64,000 nucleotides of DNA. It comes from Flavipsychrobacter sp. (GTDB taxonomy: Bacteria; Bacteroidota; Bacteroidia; Chitinophagales; Chitinophagaceae). The notes below the pieces were generated by a model, which saw only the letters and a list, made by a program, of their open reading frames with translations, was not told the origin of the DNA and made no database searches. The number at the start of each line of letters is the position of its first letter. The first letter of the stretch is position 1. This document shows positions 7,248 to 63,880 of this stretch, piece after piece. Where the stretch lies: assembly GCA_016786615.1 (NCBI GenBank), contig JAEUVX010000002.1:248001-312000 (forward strand), read 5' to 3'. The position numbers and the translations under genes were made by a program.

Positions 7248-7706
7248 ATGCCAACCATTGAGGAACTTATTAAGACAAAACCGATAAAGGACCCGCACGA
7301 GCGGGCGCTGCTGAATATTATTTACACAGGCAGCTGGATTATTAATCGTGTCAATGCGACATTGAAACCTTATGGTATTTCAGAACCGCAATATAATGTA
7401 CTGCGGATACTACGAGGGCAGCATGGCGAAGCCATGAACCTATTTGAAATACAAAGCAGGATGGTACAACGCATGTCAAACGTATCCCGACTAATAGATA
7501 AACTATTAGATAAAGGACTTGTGGAACGTACCGAATGTAAGGAGAACAGACGCATGGTAGATATCAGCATCACCCCGAAAGGGCTACAACTGCTTACCGA
7601 TTTGGAAACACCACTGAACGAAAACCTGCAAAAGATAACTTCTTGCCTGAAAAAAGAAGAAGCGGCACAACTGGCTCTATGGCTGGATGCGATGCATAAT
7701 GAATAA
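7248..7706 (+). CDS. MarR family transcriptional regulator
   Basis: A 152-residue winged-helix DNA-binding protein. The fold is read from the N-terminal dimerisation helix (residues 10-40), YGISEPQYNVLRIL, the recognition helix region QRMSNVSRLIDKLLDKGLVER and the wing ENRRMVDISITPKG. Members usually respond to small phenolic ligands or oxidants and repress a nearby gene. The divergent neighbour aroQ starts only 43 bases away, so the intergenic region could hold a shared operator, but I see no convincing palindrome. xerD follows 22 bases downstream. Confidence 0.9.
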   Translation: MPTIEELIKTKPIKDPHERALLNIIYTGSWIINRVNATLKPYGISEPQYNVLRILRGQHGEAMNLFEIQSRMVQRMSNVSRLIDKLLDKGLVERTECKENRRMVDISITPKGLQLLTDLETPLNENLQKITSCLKKEEAAQLALWLDAMHNE

Positions 7707-7728
7707 ATTGCCTTCAATTTACTAGCCC

Positions 7729-8631
7729 GTGTGGGAAGCATACCTCAAAGGTTTTAAAGCGTACTTGCAATTAGAACGCTCTATGTCTGACAACACCGTA
7801 GAGGCATATCTGCATGATGCAGCTATGCTAAGCGATTTCATGCAAACTACAGAACACAATGCGGCTTTAGAGGATATTACTCTAACACATCTGCAATCAT
7901 TTCTTGCATACATCAACGAGTTGGAACTAAGTGCTGGTACACAAGCGCGGGTTATCAGCGGTATCAAATCATTCTACCGATATCTGCTGCTGGAAGAAGT
8001 AATCAAAAATGATCCGACAGAACTATTGGAAGCTCCGAAACTAAAACGGGCTTTGCCGGAGTTTCTAAGCGTAGATGAAGTGGAATTGCTATTAGGAGCA
8101 ATAGACCACAGTACACCTGAAGGGCAACGAAACCGTGCCATGCTGGAAACTATGTATAGTTGCGGGCTACGGGTAAGCGAAGTAATAAACCTGCAATTGA
8201 GCAATCTGTACCTGGACGTAGGTTTCATCAGGGTTATAGGTAAAGGGAATAAGGAAAGACTTGTACCGATAGGCGAAACAGCAGCCAAACAGGTGAAACT
8301 GTATAAAGACCATGTACGCAGCTTTGTAAATATCAAACCCGGTAATGAGGATATCGTTTTCCTGAACCGACGGGGCAGTGCATTATCTCGTGTAATGGTA
8401 TTCCTGATTTTAAAAGACCTTACAATTAAAAGCGGCATCAAAAAAAACATACACCCGCATACCCTACGCCACTCTTTTGCCACACACCTGGTAGAAGCGG
8501 GGGCAGACTTGAGAGCCGTACAGGAAATGATGGGCCATAAGAGCATTACAACCACTGAAATATATACCCACCTCGACAGGACCTACCTGCGGCAGACATT
8601 AGAAAAATATCATCCCCGATTTGGTAAATAG
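7729..8631 (+). CDS. xerD: Site-specific tyrosine recombinase XerD
   Basis: Resolves chromosome dimers at dif with XerC. 300 residues with an N-terminal SAM-like core-binding domain (to about residue 85) and the catalytic domain with R148 (CGLRVSE), a Lys in GKGNKERLVP, H244-T-L-R247-H, H270 (GHKS) and nucleophile Y279. Start codon is GTG at 7729. The length and unbroken core are those of housekeeping Xer proteins rather than of a mobile integrase, and no element boundaries are visible around it. Confidence 0.93.
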   Translation: MWEAYLKGFKAYLQLERSMSDNTVEAYLHDAAMLSDFMQTTEHNAALEDITLTHLQSFLAYINELELSAGTQARVISGIKSFYRYLLLEEVIKNDPTELLEAPKLKRALPEFLSVDEVELLLGAIDHSTPEGQRNRAMLETMYSCGLRVSEVINLQLSNLYLDVGFIRVIGKGNKERLVPIGETAAKQVKLYKDHVRSFVNIKPGNEDIVFLNRRGSALSRVMVFLILKDLTIKSGIKKNIHPHTLRHSFATHLVEAGADLRAVQEMMGHKSITTTEIYTHLDRTYLRQTLEKYHPRFGK

Positions 8632-54324: not shown

Positions 54325-55392
54325 ATGCAAAGACTTATCGCCATATTGCTGGCACTGCTACCACTGGTATCCAATGCACAAAAACACCGCGGCAACAACC
54401 CTGTAGGGCATTTTAATGACGAAGCCTACTGGCAAAAGTGTGCAGCTGTAAAACACCTGCCGGCCAGCCGTATAACAGATGCAGATACAGCAATAGTAGT
54501 GGTAAGCAATCGCAAACCTAATACCGACCCGCTGCGCTATATGTGTGAGGAAAGGGACGGCAATGCATTATATTACTATTTCGTATTTAGCAGAAATGGC
54601 AAATGGAATGTGCTGCAGGTAGAAAGCCTGGAGAAAGCTATTGGCTATATGCCCGATAAAAGCAGGGACTGGGTGATGTATGTAGAGGGTATGGGCAAAC
54701 TATTTACCAGCGATTTGTACCGTGGCATGAGTATGGCAGGACAATACGGTGTCAACGTGATTATGTTCGACTATCCGAGCATTACCACAACCAAAGGCGG
54801 GCTTGGCAACTACTTCTTTTCTATGAAGAATGCACGCACTGCTTACAAAGATTTTATTCCGGCATTTGAACATGTGAAGCAACTATACAAAAGCGGTACG
54901 CTTGGCAACGGCAAAATAAGTATGTTCTACCACAGCATGGGCAACCATGTATGGAGACAAGCAGTGAGGAACGATATGCTTGACAAGCTGAATGGTGATG
55001 TATGGGTGAGTAATTTTATCATGAATGCACCTTGTGTACCACGCAGAGGGCATAAGCGTTTGGTAAACCAAATACACTTTGCAAAGGGCATCTACATTAA
55101 TTATAACAAGCAAGATTTTACGCTTGGTGGCGCTTATCTGGTAAGCAAAAAAATACAGCTGGGGCAAAAACCGGTGCGCAATATCAGCAACCATGCAGTG
55201 TATGTAAACTTCAATATGCTATGCGGTAACGACCATAGCAATTTCCTGTCATTAGAAGGACGCACACCTGCAAAGCCGCAATCTTTGCGCTATTACAATA
55301 CCCTATTACATGGCAATACGCCAAACCTGCAAGACAGTACACAGTTTGGCGTATCGACGTTTAAAAATATTGGATTTGAATTGATACCTTAG
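54325..55392 (+). CDS. Exported alpha/beta-hydrolase-like protein (DUF900-like)
   Basis: A 355-residue protein with signal peptide MQRLIAILLALLPLVSNA. The middle part has VIMFDYPS, a helix, and then ISMFYHSMGNHVWRQAV: a nucleophile-elbow-like HSMGN as in the DUF900 alpha/beta hydrolases, followed by NFIMNAPCVPRRGHKRLVNQ and GNDHSNFLSLEG, which may provide acid and His. A complete triad is not certain. The stop codon overlaps the stop of the convergent kdsB gene by 4 bases. Confidence 0.7.
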   Translation: MQRLIAILLALLPLVSNAQKHRGNNPVGHFNDEAYWQKCAAVKHLPASRITDADTAIVVVSNRKPNTDPLRYMCEERDGNALYYYFVFSRNGKWNVLQVESLEKAIGYMPDKSRDWVMYVEGMGKLFTSDLYRGMSMAGQYGVNVIMFDYPSITTTKGGLGNYFFSMKNARTAYKDFIPAFEHVKQLYKSGTLGNGKISMFYHSMGNHVWRQAVRNDMLDKLNGDVWVSNFIMNAPCVPRRGHKRLVNQIHFAKGIYINYNKQDFTLGGAYLVSKKIQLGQKPVRNISNHAVYVNFNMLCGNDHSNFLSLEGRTPAKPQSLRYYNTLLHGNTPNLQDSTQFGVSTFKNIGFELIP

Positions 55393-56132
55393 GCAATATT
55401 CATCAACCTCAACACCTTCTCTACATCTTCGGGTGTATCAACACAATGGCTGTCGAAGTTGGTGATGGCGCATTTTATTTTGAAGCCTGCTTCCAGCCAG
55501 CGCAGTTGCTCTAAAGACTCTGCTTTTTCGAGCGACGAAACAGAGAGTTTACACACCTGGTCCAGCACATCTGTACGGTAAGCATACATACCTACGTGGC
55601 GATAGTAGTTGTGATGCTTGTGCCATTCTTCCTGTGGCACACCTTTTACATATGGTATCACCATACGGCTGAAGTACATACCTTCCTGATGATCGTTCAG
55701 CACTACTTTCACCTCGCCCATATCAAACAGCACTTCGTGACTATCAACGGGAATGATGAGTGTAGCCAGTTCCGCTGTGCCTTCTTTCAGCACACTTGCC
55801 AGTGTATCTATCTGCGATGGGTCTATGAACGGTTCATCGCCCTGAATATTTATTACATACTTGTAATTACCACCTATCTGCTGCAATGCATCCCAGCAGC
55901 GGTCTGTACCGCTCGGGTGTTCTTCTTTCGTCATCACTACCTCGCCACCAAAAGACACTACATGGTCTGCAATACGCGCATCATCTGTTGCCACCACTAC
56001 TTTATCAAGCGAACCGCATTTTGATGCCTGCTCGTACACACGCTGTATCATTGTCTTGCCTTTGATGTCTATCAATGGCTTGCCGGGAAAACGGGTAGAC
56101 GCGTAGCGCGCAGGTATTATACCAACTATCAT
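55389..56132 (-). CDS. kdsB: CMP-Kdo synthetase (3-deoxy-manno-octulosonate cytidylyltransferase)
   Basis: Activates Kdo, or here probably 8-amino-Kdo, with CTP for transfer to lipid A. 247 residues with IGIIPARYASTRFPGKPL-type N-terminus (IIPARYASTRFPGKPLIDI), VVVATDDARIADHV, the TKEEHPSGTDRCWDAL loop, VINIQGDEPFIDPSQID, and HVGMYAYRTDVL. All are KdsB signatures. It is the last gene of the Kdo cluster, 9 bases after kdsC. In Shewanella the matching enzyme prefers the amino sugar, so the presence of kdnA and kdnB suggests the same here. Confidence 0.95.
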   Translation of the reverse strand: MIVGIIPARYASTRFPGKPLIDIKGKTMIQRVYEQASKCGSLDKVVVATDDARIADHVVSFGGEVVMTKEEHPSGTDRCWDALQQIGGNYKYVINIQGDEPFIDPSQIDTLASVLKEGTAELATLIIPVDSHEVLFDMGEVKVVLNDHQEGMYFSRMVIPYVKGVPQEEWHKHHNYYRHVGMYAYRTDVLDQVCKLSVSSLEKAESLEQLRWLEAGFKIKCAITNFDSHCVDTPEDVEKVLRLMNIA

Positions 56133-56141
56133 AACTAACTA

Positions 56142-56837
56142 TTACTCTTCTATTATTTGTGAATCTTTATTGATGTAAAACGATGGCACTGTCTGATTGC
56201 GCAATGTGATGTACGTTTTGTATGTATCTGTATAGCGCATACGGTTGCTGATGGTTTCTGTGTACAGTCCGCTAAGGCCTGTTAGCAATTCTACCGCTTC
56301 GCGCACTGCACCTTCGCCACCTACATTGGCAGCCAGGTAATCTACCAATCCGTTCTGTACAGCAAACTCTGTCAGCAGCGGATTGCAAGGACGCGGTATC
56401 ATAATACGCAGGCCACAGATTTCTGCAGCACCAAAGTCCAGCACATCATCAAACACAAAAGCTACTTCTTCGGGCTGGATGCCATGCTTTTCGCAAAGGT
56501 GTTGCAATGCTTCTGTCTTCAATTTGATTTTGCTGTAAGCACCATGAAAACATTCACGCTTTGCCAATGTCCATGCAGCACTGTTACGCTCGCCCGATAT
56601 GATGGCTACAACAGGCACATCGTTATGACGCAGGTAGTGATTGAAGCGGAGCATATTAGTACCCATCGCATCTACCTCGCTGAACGAGCTGGTGCCATTC
56701 TCGTCCTTCACACCATTATTAAATACACCATCCCAATCAAATATGTATGCTTTGATGCGAGATAGCTTCTCCTGCACCTGTTGCGGTGTAGCTATAAAGT
56801 TGCCTTTAAAATGGCTGATGACGGTGTTGATATCCAT
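56142..56837 (-). CDS. kdsC: KdsC-like HAD phosphatase (Kdo-8-phosphate phosphatase)
   Basis: HAD-superfamily enzyme expected to remove phosphate from Kdo-8-phosphate. 231 residues with motif I FDWDGVFNNG, motif II VVAIISGERN, a Lys in AYSKIKLKTEAL, and motif IV in VAFVFDDVLDFGAAEICGL; GGEGAVREAVELL matches the KdsC C-terminus. It is longer than the usual ~170-190 residues because of about 45 extra residues at the C-terminus after that motif. Located between the transaldolase-CBS gene and kdsB, with its own promoter. Role inferred from context and family. Confidence 0.85.
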   Translation of the reverse strand: MDINTVISHFKGNFIATPQQVQEKLSRIKAYIFDWDGVFNNGVKDENGTSSFSEVDAMGTNMLRFNHYLRHNDVPVVAIISGERNSAAWTLAKRECFHGAYSKIKLKTEALQHLCEKHGIQPEEVAFVFDDVLDFGAAEICGLRIMIPRPCNPLLTEFAVQNGLVDYLAANVGGEGAVREAVELLTGLSGLYTETISNRMRYTDTYKTYITLRNQTVPSFYINKDSQIIEE

Positions 56838-56915: not shown

Positions 56916-57929
56916 TTAAAGTCCTTTCAGGTCTTGTATATCCAGCATACCTACAGGCATACCATTTTCGGTAACCAGTATAGTATCTACGTTTGTTTTC
57001 TTGAAGATGCCGGCTGCATCGTTCAGCAGTGCGTTTGCATCTACGCTGATAGGCGTACCGTATTGCATATCGCCCATTTTCTTGCTGAGGATTTGCTCAC
57101 CGTCGTTTTGCAACAGGCGACGGATATCACCATCTGTAAACACACCTTTAACGCTACCATCTGCATTTGTAACCGTTACAGCACCAAAGCCGTAGCCAGT
57201 CATCTTAACCAATGCGCTTTGCAGTGTATCGTCTGCTGATACCAGCGGGTTGATGCCGTTTGCAGCTTCCTTCACGCGTACTGTCATCAGGCGTGTATCT
57301 ACCAGGAACTGTTCTGTACCTACAGTCGTAAAGTTATTTTCAGTCAGGCTCTTCAACACTTTCAGTGGCACTGTAATAGTGTGTACACCTATATTGATAG
57401 CGTTGCGCACGTGCTCGTTGTGGCGCACAGAGCTGAACATGATTTTTGTATCATAACCGTAATGGTCTACAGCGTCAACACATTGTTCTACCAGTGTCAG
57501 CGCATCGTGGCCTTGATCTTGCAGTCGGCCCACCAGCGGACAAACATAAGTAGCACCCGCGTGCATAGCCATATAAGCCTGTTGCAGTGTGTACACAAGG
57601 TGTACGTTTACCAGTAAGCCTTCTTTACGCAGCAGATTACAAGCGCGTACGCCTTCCAACGATACCGGTATTTTAAATACTGTTCTTTTCGGGTCCAGAC
57701 CCAGGTCTAGTTGACGGTGTGCTTCTTTCAGCACATCTTCAGCTGTGTCTCCCAATGCCTCTATCTGCAATACAGGCACCATTTTGCTCAGCTTAACGAT
57801 AGTACCATCTATGTCAGTGATACCTTCGCGTTGCATGAATGTAGGCGTCGTGGTAAGACCATTCAGGAAGCCCAGTTTAAAACCTTCTTCAATCTCTTTA
57901 AGATTGGCAGAATCTAAGTATAATTCCAT
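56916..57929 (-). CDS. Transaldolase/fructose-6-phosphate aldolase-like domain fused to CBS pair
   Basis: A 337-residue fusion. Residues 1-215 are a MipB/FSA-type class I aldolase barrel: MELYLDSANL with D6, Schiff-base K86 in TVFKIPVS, CPLVGRLQDQGHD, and SSVRHNEHVRNAINIG with ITVPLKVLKSL. Residues 28-30 read T-P-T in place of the almost invariant TTNP[ST]: Asn28 is Thr. Residues about 220-337 are two CBS motifs (GFGAVTVTNADGSVKGVFTDGDIRRLL and DTILVTENGMPVGMLDIQDL, each seen in part). CBS pairs sense adenine nucleotides. Lies between kdsA and kdsC. I infer a link to arabinose-5-phosphate supply. Confidence 0.85.
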   Translation of the reverse strand: MELYLDSANLKEIEEGFKLGFLNGLTTTPTFMQREGITDIDGTIVKLSKMVPVLQIEALGDTAEDVLKEAHRQLDLGLDPKRTVFKIPVSLEGVRACNLLRKEGLLVNVHLVYTLQQAYMAMHAGATYVCPLVGRLQDQGHDALTLVEQCVDAVDHYGYDTKIMFSSVRHNEHVRNAINIGVHTITVPLKVLKSLTENNFTTVGTEQFLVDTRLMTVRVKEAANGINPLVSADDTLQSALVKMTGYGFGAVTVTNADGSVKGVFTDGDIRRLLQNDGEQILSKKMGDMQYGTPISVDANALLNDAAGIFKKTNVDTILVTENGMPVGMLDIQDLKGL

Positions 57930-58015: not shown

Positions 58016-58849
58016 TTATTTGCGGTATTTCACCTCAAGGTTGTGCAGTTCTATCAATGGTTTCAGGTATTCTTCCAGATCATATACACAAAGCTGGCTG
58101 GCAGCATCGCAGAGCGCTTTCTCAGGCTCAGGATGCGTTTCTACAAATATACCGTCAACGCCAGCAGCTACACCCGCCCTGCCCAGTACAGGCAGGAATT
58201 CGCGCGCACCGCCTTTCGCATCCGCACTCGGGATACCGTATTTACGGATAGAGTGTGTGATATCGAATACCACAGGATAGCCCAGTTGTGCCATGTGGTA
58301 GAATGCACGAGGGTCAACAACGAGGTCGTTATAACCCATTGTATAACCACGCTCTGTCAGGATGATTTTATCATTACCCGCATCTACGCATTTGCCTACT
58401 GGGTGCTTCATATTTTCAGGTGCCAGAAACTGACCATGTTTGATATTGATAACAGCGCCTGTTGCTGCAGCAGCTTTCAACAAGCCAGATTGCATACACA
58501 GGTAGGCAGGTATCTGCAACACATCGCAAACCTCAGCAGCAGGTGCTGCCTGGTCCGGATAGTGAATATCCGTCAGTACAGGGAAACCGAATTGTTCTTT
58601 AATCTTCGCCAGTATCTTCACACCTTTTTCCAGACCCGGGCCATCGTAATACTTCAGGCTGCTGCGGTTGTCTTTGGTAAAAGATGATTTGTAGATGATA
58701 GGAATATTCAACCTCTCACCCACTTCTTTCAGCGTCTCCGCTGTTTTCATCATGATGCTTTCGTCTTCTATCACACAAGGACCTGAAATCAGGAACAGTT
58801 CATCTGCACCACATTGAATATTTCCTACGGCAATTTTCTTTGCGCTCAT
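58016..58849 (-). CDS. kdsA: 3-deoxy-8-phosphooctulonate synthase
   Basis: Condenses arabinose 5-phosphate with phosphoenolpyruvate to Kdo-8-phosphate. 277 residues, with FLISGPCVIEDESIMMKTAE, YKSSFTKDNRSSLKYYDGPG, GFPVLTDIHYPDQ, VDVLQIPAYLCMQSGLLKAA-type active-site segment (VCDVLQIPAYLCMQ), TERGYTMGYNDLVVDPRAFY and FVETHPEPEKALCDA. All are KdsA signatures. No arabinose-5-phosphate isomerase (SIS domain) is encoded nearby. It follows kdnB with a 4-base gap. Confidence 0.97.
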   Translation of the reverse strand: MSAKKIAVGNIQCGADELFLISGPCVIEDESIMMKTAETLKEVGERLNIPIIYKSSFTKDNRSSLKYYDGPGLEKGVKILAKIKEQFGFPVLTDIHYPDQAAPAAEVCDVLQIPAYLCMQSGLLKAAAATGAVINIKHGQFLAPENMKHPVGKCVDAGNDKIILTERGYTMGYNDLVVDPRAFYHMAQLGYPVVFDITHSIRKYGIPSADAKGGAREFLPVLGRAGVAAGVDGIFVETHPEPEKALCDAASQLCVYDLEEYLKPLIELHNLEVKYRK

Positions 58850-58853
58850 AATA

Positions 58854-59933
58854 TTACATGCGCTGATACAGCGCTTTTATTGTATCAATTGTTATTTTTT
58901 CTTTCCAGTCTGTACCAACGGCGTGGTTCCACATATGTGGCAGGTTGTATGCTACCTGTGCCATAGCAGTAATGGTTTCATCGCTCCAGTTTTTGCTAAG
59001 GCCTTGTGGTAATGTCACCTTATGTTTCTGCAACATGGTTTTGAATTCTGCTACCCCTTCAGGATAGTAATCTTCCAGATGCTGGAAGGCTACACAGTTT
59101 GCATAGCAGTGTTTTTCATCCAGTATCTTAGAAAGGCCGTAAGACAACGCGTGGCAAACACCTACTTCTGAATATGTAAGGCTCAACCCACCCATCAGCG
59201 ACGCTACCATCAGCTTATCGTCATTCTCTGCAGTTTGTCCTGCATTATCGCCCAGATAAATATCGCGGCACAGTTTCAATGATTGCTCTGCATATGCATG
59301 ACTGAAAGCATTGTTCAGCATACCATTTTCAGATTCTATACAGTGGATGTACGTATCCATACCTGTGTAGAACCATTTATCGGTAGGCACGCTTGCTATT
59401 AGTTCAGGGTCAAGAATCACCTGATTGAAAACAGTCCAATCGCACTTTAAGCCCAATTTCTTTTCAGGGCCTGTCAGTACTGCGGTCATAGACACTTCTG
59501 CACCTGTACCCGAAATGGTAGGTACACCTAAGTGGTAGATGCCCGGTTTCTTAATCAGGTTCAAACCTTGATAAAGTGTAGAAGAGCCTTCGTTGGTAAA
59601 CATCAAAGACAGTGCTTTTGCAATATCCATGATGCTGCCACCACCTATACCTACCACACCCGATGGCAGACCTTTGCTAGCCAGTATCTCATCGCGCAGT
59701 TTATCTATCTGCTCGGTAGTAGGCTCGTGCGGATCTACATCTATAAACTCTATGATGTCACCCACTTTTGTAGGGATGCGTTTTGCCAGTTCACTATCGT
59801 TGAAATAGTTATCGACTAGAAAAACGATGTATTGATTGTTCTCGTTGCGTACAGGTGCAAGGATGCTGTCCATTGTATCGAATGCGCCACGACCGTAAAC
59901 AACCTTCTCAATGTTTTTAAAATTCTTATGCAT
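58854..59933 (-). CDS. kdnB: 3-deoxy-alpha-D-manno-octulosonate 8-oxidase
   Basis: Fe-dependent alcohol dehydrogenase-family enzyme that oxidises C8 of Kdo to the aldehyde before amination. 359 residues with VVGIGGGSIMDIAKALS, GVPTISGTGAEVSMTAVL, metal ligands in FYTGMDTYIHCIES and GVCHALSYGLSKI, and the C-terminal WKEKITIDTIKALYQRM. The order and spacing match Shewanella KdnB as I remember it. It overlaps kdnA by 8 bases, as expected for partners in 8-amino-Kdo formation. Confidence 0.92.
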   Translation of the reverse strand: MHKNFKNIEKVVYGRGAFDTMDSILAPVRNENNQYIVFLVDNYFNDSELAKRIPTKVGDIIEFIDVDPHEPTTEQIDKLRDEILASKGLPSGVVGIGGGSIMDIAKALSLMFTNEGSSTLYQGLNLIKKPGIYHLGVPTISGTGAEVSMTAVLTGPEKKLGLKCDWTVFNQVILDPELIASVPTDKWFYTGMDTYIHCIESENGMLNNAFSHAYAEQSLKLCRDIYLGDNAGQTAENDDKLMVASLMGGLSLTYSEVGVCHALSYGLSKILDEKHCYANCVAFQHLEDYYPEGVAEFKTMLQKHKVTLPQGLSKNWSDETITAMAQVAYNLPHMWNHAVGTDWKEKITIDTIKALYQRM

Positions 59934-61134
59934 GTGCTGTTGCTAATGCTTTTTTAACGCAATCAGAGATTTTTGCTGCCAGTTGTTTTACCTCATCTTC
60001 CGTCCATGTGCAACGGATGCCGAATGAAATAAGACGACCAACTACTTCCTGCGATTTTGGCAAATCGAGGTTTGCATAATCCTGTGGTGCACCCAGTATC
60101 TGAATTGGCAGTTTGGAAGCTGTACGCATTTCTTTGATATGATCCCACTGATTGATGAAGTGGTACATATTAGTATACCAATAGTTGAAGCCAGTAACAC
60201 CTGCTTCGTTAAACTCAGCCACCGTACGTTTAGCAGCCTCGGTATCAGGCAACAGTATATTCAGGAATGTTGCAGAGTCTCCGGTTGGGTCTGCGAGTGT
60301 TGCAAAAGATATGCCTTCTGTCTGGCTGAGGATATCAACCAACATCTTTTTAAGCCTGTTATTAGCTTCGCGTATGTGTGGTACTTTGCGTGTTTGCGCA
60401 ACACCTACTGCCGCATGCAGCTCACTGATGCGGTAGTTGAAACCCAGTATCGGGTGTTGCTCCATACCACGGTTGCTGCCTATATGGTCGTGTCCGTGGT
60501 CGCAGTAAGAATCTGCATTTTTATATACCTGCTCATCGTTTGTAACAAGTACACCACCTTCACCGGCTGTTGCTATTTTAAAGAAGTCGAATGAATAAGA
60601 ACCTGCCTTACCAAACAAACCTGTAGCTGTGCCTTTGTATGATGCCGCGAATGCCTGGCCCGCATCTTCTACCAGTATCAGGTTGTTTTCATTAACCACC
60701 TGCATGATGCTGTCCATTTCGGCCATACCACCACACATATGCACCAGACATACCGCTTTGGTTTTTGGAGTAATGGCTTTGCGGATACCCTCTGCACTAA
60801 GGCACAGTGTTTCATCTATTTCTGCAAATACAGGCAATGCACCTATAAAGAGTACTGCCTCTACCGTTGCTATATATGTAAATGGTGGAACTATTACTTC
60901 GTCGCCCGCCCCGATACCTGCTGCTGCCAATGCTGCTGCCACCGCAGTAGACCCGCTGCTGACAGCATGTGCATATTTTGCACCTGTTATCTTTTTTACT
61001 TCCGCTTCAAAGTCTTTTGCTTTCCAGATGCCGTTGCGTTGCGCATCATGATTATATCGGAAAAGAATACCTGTTTCTAATACGTCGGCTATTTCTTTTT
61101 TTTCTTCCGCACCAAATAATTCTGTACCTGGCAT
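59926..61134 (-). CDS. kdnA: 8-amino-3,8-dideoxy-manno-octulosonate aminotransferase
   Basis: PLP-dependent DegT/DnrJ/EryC1-type aminotransferase that puts an amino group on C8 of oxidised Kdo. 402 residues. Visible: MPGTELFGAEEKKEIADVL at the N-terminus, SSGSTAVAAALAAAGIGAGD, VPPFTYIATVEAV, EDAGQAFAASYKGTATG, the PLP lysine in SFDFFKIATAGEGG and CDHGHDHIGSNRG. The start MPGxELFG and the DHGHDHIG motif agree with Shewanella KdnA. Not a generic GDP-perosamine transaminase because kdnB and Kdo genes are adjacent. Confidence 0.93.
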   Translation of the reverse strand: MPGTELFGAEEKKEIADVLETGILFRYNHDAQRNGIWKAKDFEAEVKKITGAKYAHAVSSGSTAVAAALAAAGIGAGDEVIVPPFTYIATVEAVLFIGALPVFAEIDETLCLSAEGIRKAITPKTKAVCLVHMCGGMAEMDSIMQVVNENNLILVEDAGQAFAASYKGTATGLFGKAGSYSFDFFKIATAGEGGVLVTNDEQVYKNADSYCDHGHDHIGSNRGMEQHPILGFNYRISELHAAVGVAQTRKVPHIREANNRLKKMLVDILSQTEGISFATLADPTGDSATFLNILLPDTEAAKRTVAEFNEAGVTGFNYWYTNMYHFINQWDHIKEMRTASKLPIQILGAPQDYANLDLPKSQEVVGRLISFGIRCTWTEDEVKQLAAKISDCVKKALATAHA

Positions 61135-61196: not shown

Positions 61197-62447
61197 CTAT
61201 TTAAGCCACTTGGGGCCAACCGCATCCAGTATGCGCAGGGTGGCACCTGTTTGGGCTGCAATGTAGTCCCGTATTGCTTTTCGCATAGAATGACGACGTT
61301 TATCATCGTCCATCAGCTTGCCCAACAAACTGTTAAAATGTTCTTTTTCGCTGATAGGGAATGCATACATGCGGGAAACCAGCGCCTTCGCCTCTACAAA
61401 CTTGTCGTAAACAGGGCCAAAAAACACAGGCAAACCAAACACTGCAGGCTCCAGCACATTGTGTATGCCACCTTTCTGGAAGCCGCCTCCAACATAGGCT
61501 ATTTCACCATAGCTATATAGGCTGGAAAGCATGCCTATATTATCAATAATCAGCACTTGATAACCAGCCGGCTCTTCAGACAAGTCAGAATACAAAACCG
61601 CATGGCCGGCAAACATATCCAGCAAGCTTTTTATATGTGGCTCATCAATTTCGTGCGGGGCAATGATAAGCTTCCAGTCCTCCGGCAGTTGTGGTAAGAT
61701 GTGCCTTAGTACGTCTTCATCCTCGTGCCAGGTGCTACCCGCTATTATCAGATTATCTTTTTCTTTAAACTTGTCTATCAACGGAAACTGCCTTACACCT
61801 GCCGCTATGGTACGCACCCTGTCATATCGGGTATCGCCTGCCACTATTACGTTTTCAGTAATTCCTGCTGTTTCCAGCAGTCGCTTAGATTCATCATCCT
61901 GTACGAACAGATAATCAAAACAGCGGAGCATCTTTCTGAACAGCCCACCATGTGGCTTGAAGAAAGACTGTCCTTTGCGGAATGCTGCAGACACCAATAT
62001 TGTTGGCACTTCTGCCTTTTTCAGTTGGGTAAGATAGTAGTACCAAAACTCGTACTTCACAAAGACTGCCATCGCAGGATTCACCATCTCTATAAACCTA
62101 CGTGCATTACGGTGGCTATCCATTGGCAGATAGTACACATAGTCTGCGCCGGCATAATTCTTTCTTATCTCGTAGCCTGATGGCGAAAAGAATGTAAGCA
62201 CAATCTTGTAAGCCGGGTATTGCTCTTTGATAGCTTCTATTAATGGCCTGCCCTGCTCAAACTCGCCCAGCGATGAGCAGTGCGCCCATATGCGCTTTTC
62301 ATCTTTACCTTGTAAATCGGCAGCAATCTTATCCAACAATCCTCTCCGACCTCGCAGCCACAGCTTTGGCTTTTCGTCAAACAAAGAAGCCACACGCACA
62401 CCAATACGGTATAGCAGGAGAAAGATATTGTAAAGCAGCAATTGCAT
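61197..62447 (-). CDS. waaA: Kdo transferase
   Basis: Inner-membrane glycosyltransferase (GT30) that adds Kdo or 8-amino-Kdo to lipid A precursor. 416 residues with one N-terminal hydrophobic helix, GRRGLLDKIAADLQGKDEKR, WAHCSSLGEFEQGRPLIEAI (conserved Glu), VLTFFSPSGYEIRKN, YYLPMDSHRNARRFIEMVNP, VKYEFWYYYL, RKGQSFFKPHGG and AYVGGGFQKGGIHNVLEPAVFG. These define WaaA/KdtA. It is 8 bases after sdaA and precedes kdnA. Confidence 0.95.
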   Translation of the reverse strand: MQLLLYNIFLLLYRIGVRVASLFDEKPKLWLRGRRGLLDKIAADLQGKDEKRIWAHCSSLGEFEQGRPLIEAIKEQYPAYKIVLTFFSPSGYEIRKNYAGADYVYYLPMDSHRNARRFIEMVNPAMAVFVKYEFWYYYLTQLKKAEVPTILVSAAFRKGQSFFKPHGGLFRKMLRCFDYLFVQDDESKRLLETAGITENVIVAGDTRYDRVRTIAAGVRQFPLIDKFKEKDNLIIAGSTWHEDEDVLRHILPQLPEDWKLIIAPHEIDEPHIKSLLDMFAGHAVLYSDLSEEPAGYQVLIIDNIGMLSSLYSYGEIAYVGGGFQKGGIHNVLEPAVFGLPVFFGPVYDKFVEAKALVSRMYAFPISEKEHFNSLLGKLMDDDKRRHSMRKAIRDYIAAQTGATLRILDAVGPKWLK

Positions 62448-62455
62448 TTATTGTC

Positions 62456-63880
62456 TTAGCATTCCGGCAAGCTGATAGGCACTTTTGTAGCAAGGCCGCC
62501 TTCTGCTGTCTCTTTATATTTATGATTCATATCCAGTGCCGTCTCCCACATGGTTTGCACTACGTGGTCCAGCGATACTTTGGCATTATCAGGGTTGCTT
62601 TGCAGTGCCAGTTGCGATGCAGTGATAGCTTTGATAGCCCCCATCGTATTGCGCTCTATGCATGGCACCTGCACAAGGCCACCTACAGGGTCGCACGTTA
62701 ACCCTAAGTGGTGTTCCATCGCAATCTCTGCAGCCATCAGGCACTGGCGCACATTACCACCCAGACTTTCTGTAAGTGCTGCCGCTGCCATTGCAGAAGA
62801 TACACCTATCTCTGCCTGGCAACCACCCATGGCAGCCGATAGCGTTGCTCCCTTTTTAAAGATGCTACCTATCTCTGATGCAGTCATCAGGAACTGGATT
62901 ATTTTTTCATCATCAAAACCATCGCAGAAGGTGATGAAATAATGCAGTACCGCAGGCACAACACCAGCCGCACCGTTTGTTGGCGCCGTCACCACACGGC
63001 TGAAGGAAGCATTCTCTTCATTTACCGCCAACGCAAAACAGCTAACCCAATCCAGAATATACTGGAAGTTGTGCCCACCCTCGCGGATGGCAGCTAGCCA
63101 TTCTGTATGATTGTTGTATGTTTTTCCTTTCAATAATCTTTTATTGAGATTGGCAGCGCGGCGCATTACATGCAGTCCACCCGGCAATTCGCCACCTATG
63201 TGGCTACCGCGATATATACAGTCGCGCATCACTTCCCATATCCTCAACACACCCCTTTTTGTTTCTGCCTCGCTACGCCATGCGTGCTCATTTTCCATTA
63301 CCACCTCGTGTATGTGCAGGCCTGTTTTGCGGCACCAGTGCAATAAGTCATCAGCTTTGTCTATCGGGAAGGGTAAATCAACTTCATTTGCACCGCTCCC
63401 TTCCTCTGCTTCCTTCACCACAAAGCCACCACCAATAGAATAGAATGTTTCAGCTATCTCCTCGCCATTATTAAACGAACAAAGGAATGTGACAGCATTG
63501 GGGTGAAAAGGCAGGCTTTCGTCCATCAGGAATACCACATCTTCCGCAGGGTCAAAATCTATAACCCTTGAAAGACCGAGGTTTATTTTCTTTTCTGTAG
63601 CTATCTGATTGAGGCGTAGCGTGATTTCGTTTACATCGAACGTTACAGGATCTTCACCATTCAAACCCAGGATTACGGCAACATCTGTACCGTGACCTTT
63701 GCCGGTTTTAGCCAGCGAGCCATAGAGCAATACTTTTACAGACTTCACATTGTCTATCCCTTTTTGCTGGATGGTGTCTACAAAACGCAAAGCTGCGCGC
63801 CATGGTCCAAGTGTGTGCGAACTGCTGGGCCCTACTCCTATCTTAAATATGTCGAATACCGAAATACACTCTTTTTTCAC
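62456..63880 (-). CDS. sdaA: L-serine ammonia-lyase (iron-sulfur)
   Basis: Deaminates L-serine to pyruvate with a [4Fe-4S] cluster. 474 residues in the single-chain form, beta domain first ([23 protein letters not shown]) then alpha domain with [38 protein letters not shown] (cluster Cys residues) and the C-terminal [18 protein letters not shown]. All typical of bacterial serine dehydratases. It is the most upstream gene of the minus-strand run leading into waaA, with an 8-base gap; a functional link to the Kdo pathway is not evident beyond co-transcription. Confidence 0.95.

Follow-up and report, generated by a model that had tools for sequence, protein, structure and literature searches.

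TalCBS, a transaldolase-CBS fusion of Kdo gene clusters, as a probable replacement of KdsD in many Bacteroidota

Two groups of enzymes and one pathway are the closest described relatives of the protein reported here, which we call TalCBS. FsaA, TalC/MipB and the transaldolases of Thermotoga maritima (1vpx) and Thermoplasma acidophilum (3s0c) share with TalCBS the barrel, the Schiff-base Lys86, D6 and the phosphate site formed by R135, S167 and R169. Compared with FsaA and the small transaldolases, however, TalCBS has four exchanged residues (Asn28 to Thr, Thr110 to His, Ser/Ala130 to Cys, and Phe/Tyr132 to Leu) and adds a pair of CBS domains, linkage to kdsA and a distribution that points to the replacement of KdsD. 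The D-arabinose 5-phosphate isomerases KdsD/GutQ/KpsF have the same type of C-terminal CBS pair, including the motif G-x-x-TDGD-x-RR, and by distribution the same place in the pathway, but their catalytic domain is an SIS domain, whereas that of TalCBS is a transaldolase barrel, and the N-terminal domains of the two are unrelated in sequence. The third system is the Kdo8N pathway (KdnA/KdnB), from which the gene cluster analyzed here contains a kdnB homologue and a DegT aminotransferase. No transaldolase-CBS protein and no replacement of KdsD by a transaldolase was found described in the titles and abstract starts of the open-access literature.

Here, we analyzed TalCBS starting from a stretch of 64,000 nucleotides of Flavipsychrobacter sp. 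DNA (the window) and followed its relatives through the class Bacteroidia. Many Bacteroidota lack KdsD, which usually makes arabinose 5-phosphate (A5P), the sugar from which synthesis of their outer-membrane Kdo starts. Sequence comparison shows the fold of TalCBS, an active-site pattern that does not vary, gene linkage to kdsA and kdsC, and a distribution in which TalCBS and KdsD exclude each other. It makes it likely (a probability of roughly 0.8) that TalCBS supplies A5P to KdsA in Bacteroidia without KdsD and is a non-homologous replacement of that SIS-type enzyme.

The TalCBS gene and its Kdo cluster

The TalCBS gene (positions 56916-57929, minus strand) starts with ATG and encodes a predicted A5P-forming enzyme of 337 amino acids. 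A Pfam search assigned residues 3-201 to TAL_FSA (7.7e-34) and matched CBS domains in two stretches (5.5e-14) within the region of residues ~215-337, in agreement with a preliminary description of the window, made from its sequence, that had read the product as an FSA-type barrel fused to a CBS pair. The family profile PF00923 is matched with 117.8 bits against a cut-off of 27. In a predicted model of TalCBS (pLDDT 87.6, pTM 0.58, with uncertain packing of the domains), the T. maritima and T. acidophilum transaldolases match over ~215 residues.

Profile searches matched no SIS catalytic domain in the protein, and the KdsD/KpsF model TIGR00393 aligns with residues 213-327 only. Of the NCBIfam models with a match to the CBS pair, KpsF scores highest, and among solved structures A5P isomerases are the top three of the eight sequences that match the CBS pair at E ≤ 1e-6 (4o9k with 1.7e-16, followed by 3k2v and 3fna). 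The preliminary description had pointed out that the CBS pair occupies the same relative place as in KdsD, where it comes after a SIS domain. The best match, 4o9k, is the CBS pair of an A5P isomerase and is reportedly a CMP-Kdo complex. The CBS pair of TalCBS is of the KdsD type and is probably a feedback sensor that responds to an end product, for example CMP-Kdo.

All genes of the surrounding Kdo cluster lie on the minus strand, in which order they begin with L-serine dehydratase (62456-63880). This is followed by the Kdo transferase gene waaA/kdtA (61197-62447; PF04413, 2.4e-45), a DegT-type aminotransferase gene that by its context probably encodes KdnA (59926-61134; PF01041, 3.8e-75), and kdnB for the Kdo 8-oxidase of the Kdo8N branch (58854-59933; 1.1e-125 to PDB 5k8c, 3-deoxy-alpha-D-manno-octulosonate 8-oxidase). 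TalCBS itself, noted before as part of a Kdo gene cluster, is situated between kdsA and a KdsC-like gene. The former (58016-58849; TIGR01362, 327.6 bits with a cut-off of 314) encodes a Kdo-8-phosphate synthase, an A5P user that belongs to a TalCBS-linked clade, and the latter (56142-56837) a HAD phosphatase of 231 amino acids that matches the solved KdsC 4um5 with 2.1e-9. The last gene is kdsB for CMP-Kdo synthetase (55389-56132; TIGR00466, 220.5 bits with a cut-off of 155.2). KdsC models match the HAD phosphatase weakly (50 of 208 bits, below the curated cut-offs), and it is probably another divergent member of the module. TALE-repeat matches that rank beside KdsC for the same gene were disregarded as strings of tiny repeat matches.

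Active-site pattern of the family

Codons 26-29 of the TalCBS gene read ACC ACG ACG CCT (TTTP), as previously reported, which places a Thr at position 28 where an Asn is usual. An alignment with FsaA and TalB of E. coli K-12 puts D6 in register with D6 and D17 (FsaA and TalB, respectively), T28 with N28 and N35, the acid-base residue E57 with Q59 and E96, and the Schiff-base K86 with K85 and K132, so that the two catalytic residues read earlier as intact, D6 and K86, are indeed in place. In the same register, H110 corresponds to T109 and T156, C130 to A129 and S176, L132 to Y131 and F178, S167 to S166 and S226, and R169 to K168 and R228. Besides Thr28, H110, C130, L132 and Q137 of the window protein also depart from plain transaldolases.

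Conservation was assessed in 116 distinct proteins of the main family, obtained from 80 loci of named genomes (the 80 best of 201 stretches coding for a relative, 79-100% identical) and from the 51 core genomes of the survey described below, of which 43 contributed. Eleven positions (D6, T28, E57, K86, N108, H110, C130, L132, R135, S167 and R169) are invariant in 116/116 of these proteins, down to 56% identity, which rules out that Thr28 is a singleton. Plain transaldolases of the class Bacteroidia, compared over 20 of 21 rows (the L209 row was excluded as unusable), keep N28, T110, S130 and F132 throughout, and H110 and C130 occur in none of the 20 as against all 116 TalCBS proteins. The two kinds of protein also split in a tree with 100/100 support. 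Decay of a transaldolase was rejected for the main family because its substitutions are fixed and occur in a coordinated set, and these invariant changes favor the altered donor chemistry that had been suggested in place of simple decay.

By these comparisons TalCBS is assigned to the transaldolase superfamily by its fold and set apart from ordinary transaldolases by its active site. The retained fold, Schiff-base lysine and phosphate site would also be expected of an ordinary transaldolase or fructose-6-phosphate (F6P) aldolase that sits in a Kdo cluster by chance, but we consider this highly improbable, as Asn28, Thr110, Ser130 and Phe132 are all substituted and the score against the F6P aldolase equivalog TIGR00875 (163.4 bits) stays under the curated cut-off of 245.95. 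Moreover, a separate normal transaldolase is encoded elsewhere in the genome of the window, and a chance neighbor would leave the mutual exclusion with KdsD unexplained. The ordinary transaldolase gene of this genome follows a gene for a PGI/PMI-type SIS protein (L084:192-2148; the latter named by eye).

Distribution, linkage and exchange with KdsD

Among 296 surveyed genomes of the class Bacteroidia, 56 have a TalCBS match, which extends over both domains in 55 and covers positions 106-334 only in one (G246). These matches score at least 270 bits, compared with 161 bits for the best plain transaldolase, and are spread over 16 families plus the side branch f4. KdsD was detected in 184 genomes (TIGR00393, E ≤ 1e-30, a count that includes SIS-only matches; 164 over the curated cut-off) and KdsA in 229 (TIGR01362, E ≤ 1e-40; 220 over the cut-off). 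The KdsA-positive genomes divide into 176 with KdsD only, 49 with TalCBS only, two with both and two with neither, an exclusion for which Fisher's test gives p = 5.8e-45, a value that overstates the evidence because the genomes are kin by descent. Every one of the 51 core TalCBS genomes is KdsA-positive, versus 2 of the 59 genomes without either supplier. Outside the KdsA-positive set, five genomes have KdsD, five have TalCBS and 57 have none of the three; the five with TalCBS all belong to f4, and one of them also has an SIS-only match.

Genomes with TalCBS and genomes with KdsD occur side by side in seven families (f1, f6, f12, f16, f34, f37 and f66, judged by eye), although in f34 the TalCBS genome, G292, itself has both suppliers; the second genome with both is G225 (3% contamination). 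The two genomes with neither look like cases of assembly loss: G013 has a partial KdsA match that is 69% identical to the window KdsA and shares the genus g24 with a TalCBS genome (G054), and G234, assembled in 250 contigs, belongs to a genus (g118) that it has in common with KdsD-positive genomes. In the 91% complete assembly of the window's genome, no SIS domain of KdsD was found; its four SIS matches were named by eye as GlmS (two in one frame of 629 residues), a PGI/PMI-type protein and GmhA. In a draw from the whole phylum, TalCBS was present at E ≤ 1e-70 in 4 of 247 genomes, all four within the class Bacteroidia. Contigs with TalCBS also occur in MAGs that bear the names Azovibrio and Saccharibacteria (L012 and L070), probably through binning errors.

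The proposed link with Kdo genes recurs across genomes. Of 106 TalCBS loci, 78 have a kdsA gene no more than 5 kb away (59/80 named and 19/26 survey loci), in every case on the strand of TalCBS, and 82 have a kdsC gene placed likewise (62/80 and 20/26, respectively); the 28 loci where no kdsA was seen within 5 kb include some on short contigs. At L144 the gap between kdsA and TalCBS contains two ORFs, and at L022 a small gene pair in this place (positions 7309-7976) resembles a PIN toxin-antitoxin when read by eye. A tie to the Kdo8N pathway was ruled out, as kdnB (E ≤ 1e-60) is found in 37 of the 51 core TalCBS genomes and absent from 14, and ten genomes with kdnB are without TalCBS.

The TalCBS-linked KdsAs form one clade with a long stem and 100/100 support (36 rows, 33 of them distinct) in a tree that leaves out ten partial or remote KdsA rows. 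The changes A61D, R120M, K139H and Q205R (E. coli numbering) are fixed in 36/36 rows of this clade and occur in 0/27 of the others. From its sequences, the KdsA of the TalCBS module is regarded as a remodelled Kdo-8-phosphate synthase. Given these fixed changes, a modified substrate for the linked KdsA is possible, and TalCBS might then provide an aldose phosphate other than A5P to a KdsA whose specificity has changed, leading to a modified Kdo. The long stem and the location of the changes at or near the substrate site agree with such a proposal; we nevertheless regard it as unlikely, because 36/36 linked rows retain the KdsA motif K-x-N-R and because the genomic combinations of suppliers and KdsA types speak against it. 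G250, a genome in one contig, has KdsD, no TalCBS and, as its sole KdsA (E ≤ 1e-40), a member of the linked clade with the same fixed changes, adjoining kdnB. Conversely, in the TalCBS genomes G143 and G109 a classical KdsA accompanies the linked one, yet no KdsD was found in them down to E 0.001, where the search returned CBS matches and, in G143, one SIS fragment of 50 residues. Both suppliers are accompanied by both KdsA types in G292 and by a KdsA of the linked clade in G225. TalCBS and KdsD appear to be exchangeable as suppliers, and the same product, A5P, is therefore indicated. Judged by its distribution, TalCBS would work like KdsD while standing outside the KdsD family, from which it is set apart by having no SIS domain.

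The five genomes of f4 (L136-L140) encode a TalCBS relative of 37-43% identity. Its CBS pair is well preserved, but K86 is lost in all five (Arg in four, Ser in one) and most of the other site residues are gone. KdsA gave no match at 1e-40 in these genomes (best ~1e-36), kdsA and kdsC are absent from the vicinity of the gene at 5/5 loci, and of eight cluster queries none but TalCBS itself was found nearby. In the tree f4 falls within TalCBS, but its rows are long branches and their exact placement is unsure. From its sequence, the f4 protein is regarded as decayed or repurposed, and the branch can be read as a natural negative control in which KdsA is missing and the catalytic site is gone. 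That the CBS pair is well kept even where Lys86 is lost could be taken to mean that TalCBS has no catalytic role and instead regulates KdsA or the Kdo operon, the barrel serving as a scaffold. We give this hardly any credence, since the catalytic Lys, Asp and Glu and the phosphate residues are invariant in the main family, and a regulator would leave 49 KdsA-positive genomes without a known source of A5P.

Proposed chemistry of A5P formation

A5P is configured like the C2-C6 part of F6P and is without the C1 hydroxymethyl group. Lys86 would form its imine at C1, the aldehyde carbon of A5P, and R135, S167 and R169 would hold the 5-phosphate. Because A5P equals F6P without C1, the distance from this imine to the C5 phosphate would be the same as that from the C2 imine of F6P to its C6 phosphate, and the transaldolase pocket may thus fit A5P once Asn28 and Ser130, the neighbors of the C1 hydroxyl, are replaced. 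The role of Asn28 at the C1 hydroxyl is one that we presume. The CBS pair would report the CMP-Kdo level, as has reportedly been proposed for KdsD. The position of C130 is that of A129 in FSA, where, according to PMC3962088, a Ser introduced as a binding partner for the C1 hydroxyl of DHA gave a 17-fold higher kcat/Km for this substrate.

That TalCBS is either a natural A5P aldolase or a Lys-imine pentose-phosphate 2-epimerase of the transaldolase family seems to us somewhat better than an even bet. Glycolaldehyde from folate synthesis would fall far below the demand of Kdo synthesis. The supply of glycolaldehyde is the weak point of an aldolase route, as no dedicated source is seen beside the TalCBS gene; no glycolaldehyde-making gene was recognized in the gap between kdsA and TalCBS at the two loci inspected (L144 and L022). 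An aldol addition of glycolaldehyde to glyceraldehyde 3-phosphate (G3P) is still the likeliest single chemistry, if one that we hold only tentatively, and it is the best single guess because of two precedents: FsaA makes A5P from glycolaldehyde and G3P in vitro (PMC9947464), and when three aldolases were compared in the same condensation, TalB F178Y showed the highest activity (PMC8208507).

The same role in A5P supply could be filled by other chemistry, namely by a 2-epimerase that acts on ribose 5-phosphate (R5P) through a C1 imine with Lys86 or by an isomerase of ribulose 5-phosphate (Ru5P), with His110 and Cys130 moving protons. We assign this alternative less than even odds, about the same weight as the aldol addition. 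R5P and Ru5P are common metabolites and a co-substrate would be unnecessary; H110 and C130, both new and invariant, would suit a two-base 2-epimerase acting on an R5P imine, or an isomerase, and the spacing from C1 imine to C5 phosphate would suit R5P as well as A5P. PLP synthase is an example of a barrel in which pentose phosphates react through a Lys imine. Against this, the aldol machinery of D6, E57 and K86 is entirely kept, and we know of no epimerase or isomerase in the transaldolase family. A Schiff-base route from Ru5P to A5P also appears chemically awkward by reasoning and is given a low weight.

Regardless of whether aldol addition or epimerization applies, TalCBS is probably, from the sequence evidence, an unrecognized replacement of KdsD in many Bacteroidota. 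If so, it would close a gap in Kdo synthesis, at its first committed sugar, for 49 of the 229 KdsA-positive Bacteroidia genomes sampled, in which the textbook enzyme KdsD was not detected. It would also offer a clean example of non-homologous replacement, as the two enzymes have a type of regulatory domain in common and differ in catalytic fold. As an A5P aldolase, it would let the Kdo backbone be built by two aldol-type steps (to A5P, then with PEP) independently of ribulose 5-phosphate. TalCBS may in that case also be the kind of enzyme sought by pathway engineers, given that an A5P aldolase with very high affinity for glycolaldehyde is named as one pathway improvement in PMC9947464. With either chemistry, an essential step of LPS synthesis would have a second, unrelated enzyme, whose control domain is of the type found in the enzyme that it replaced.
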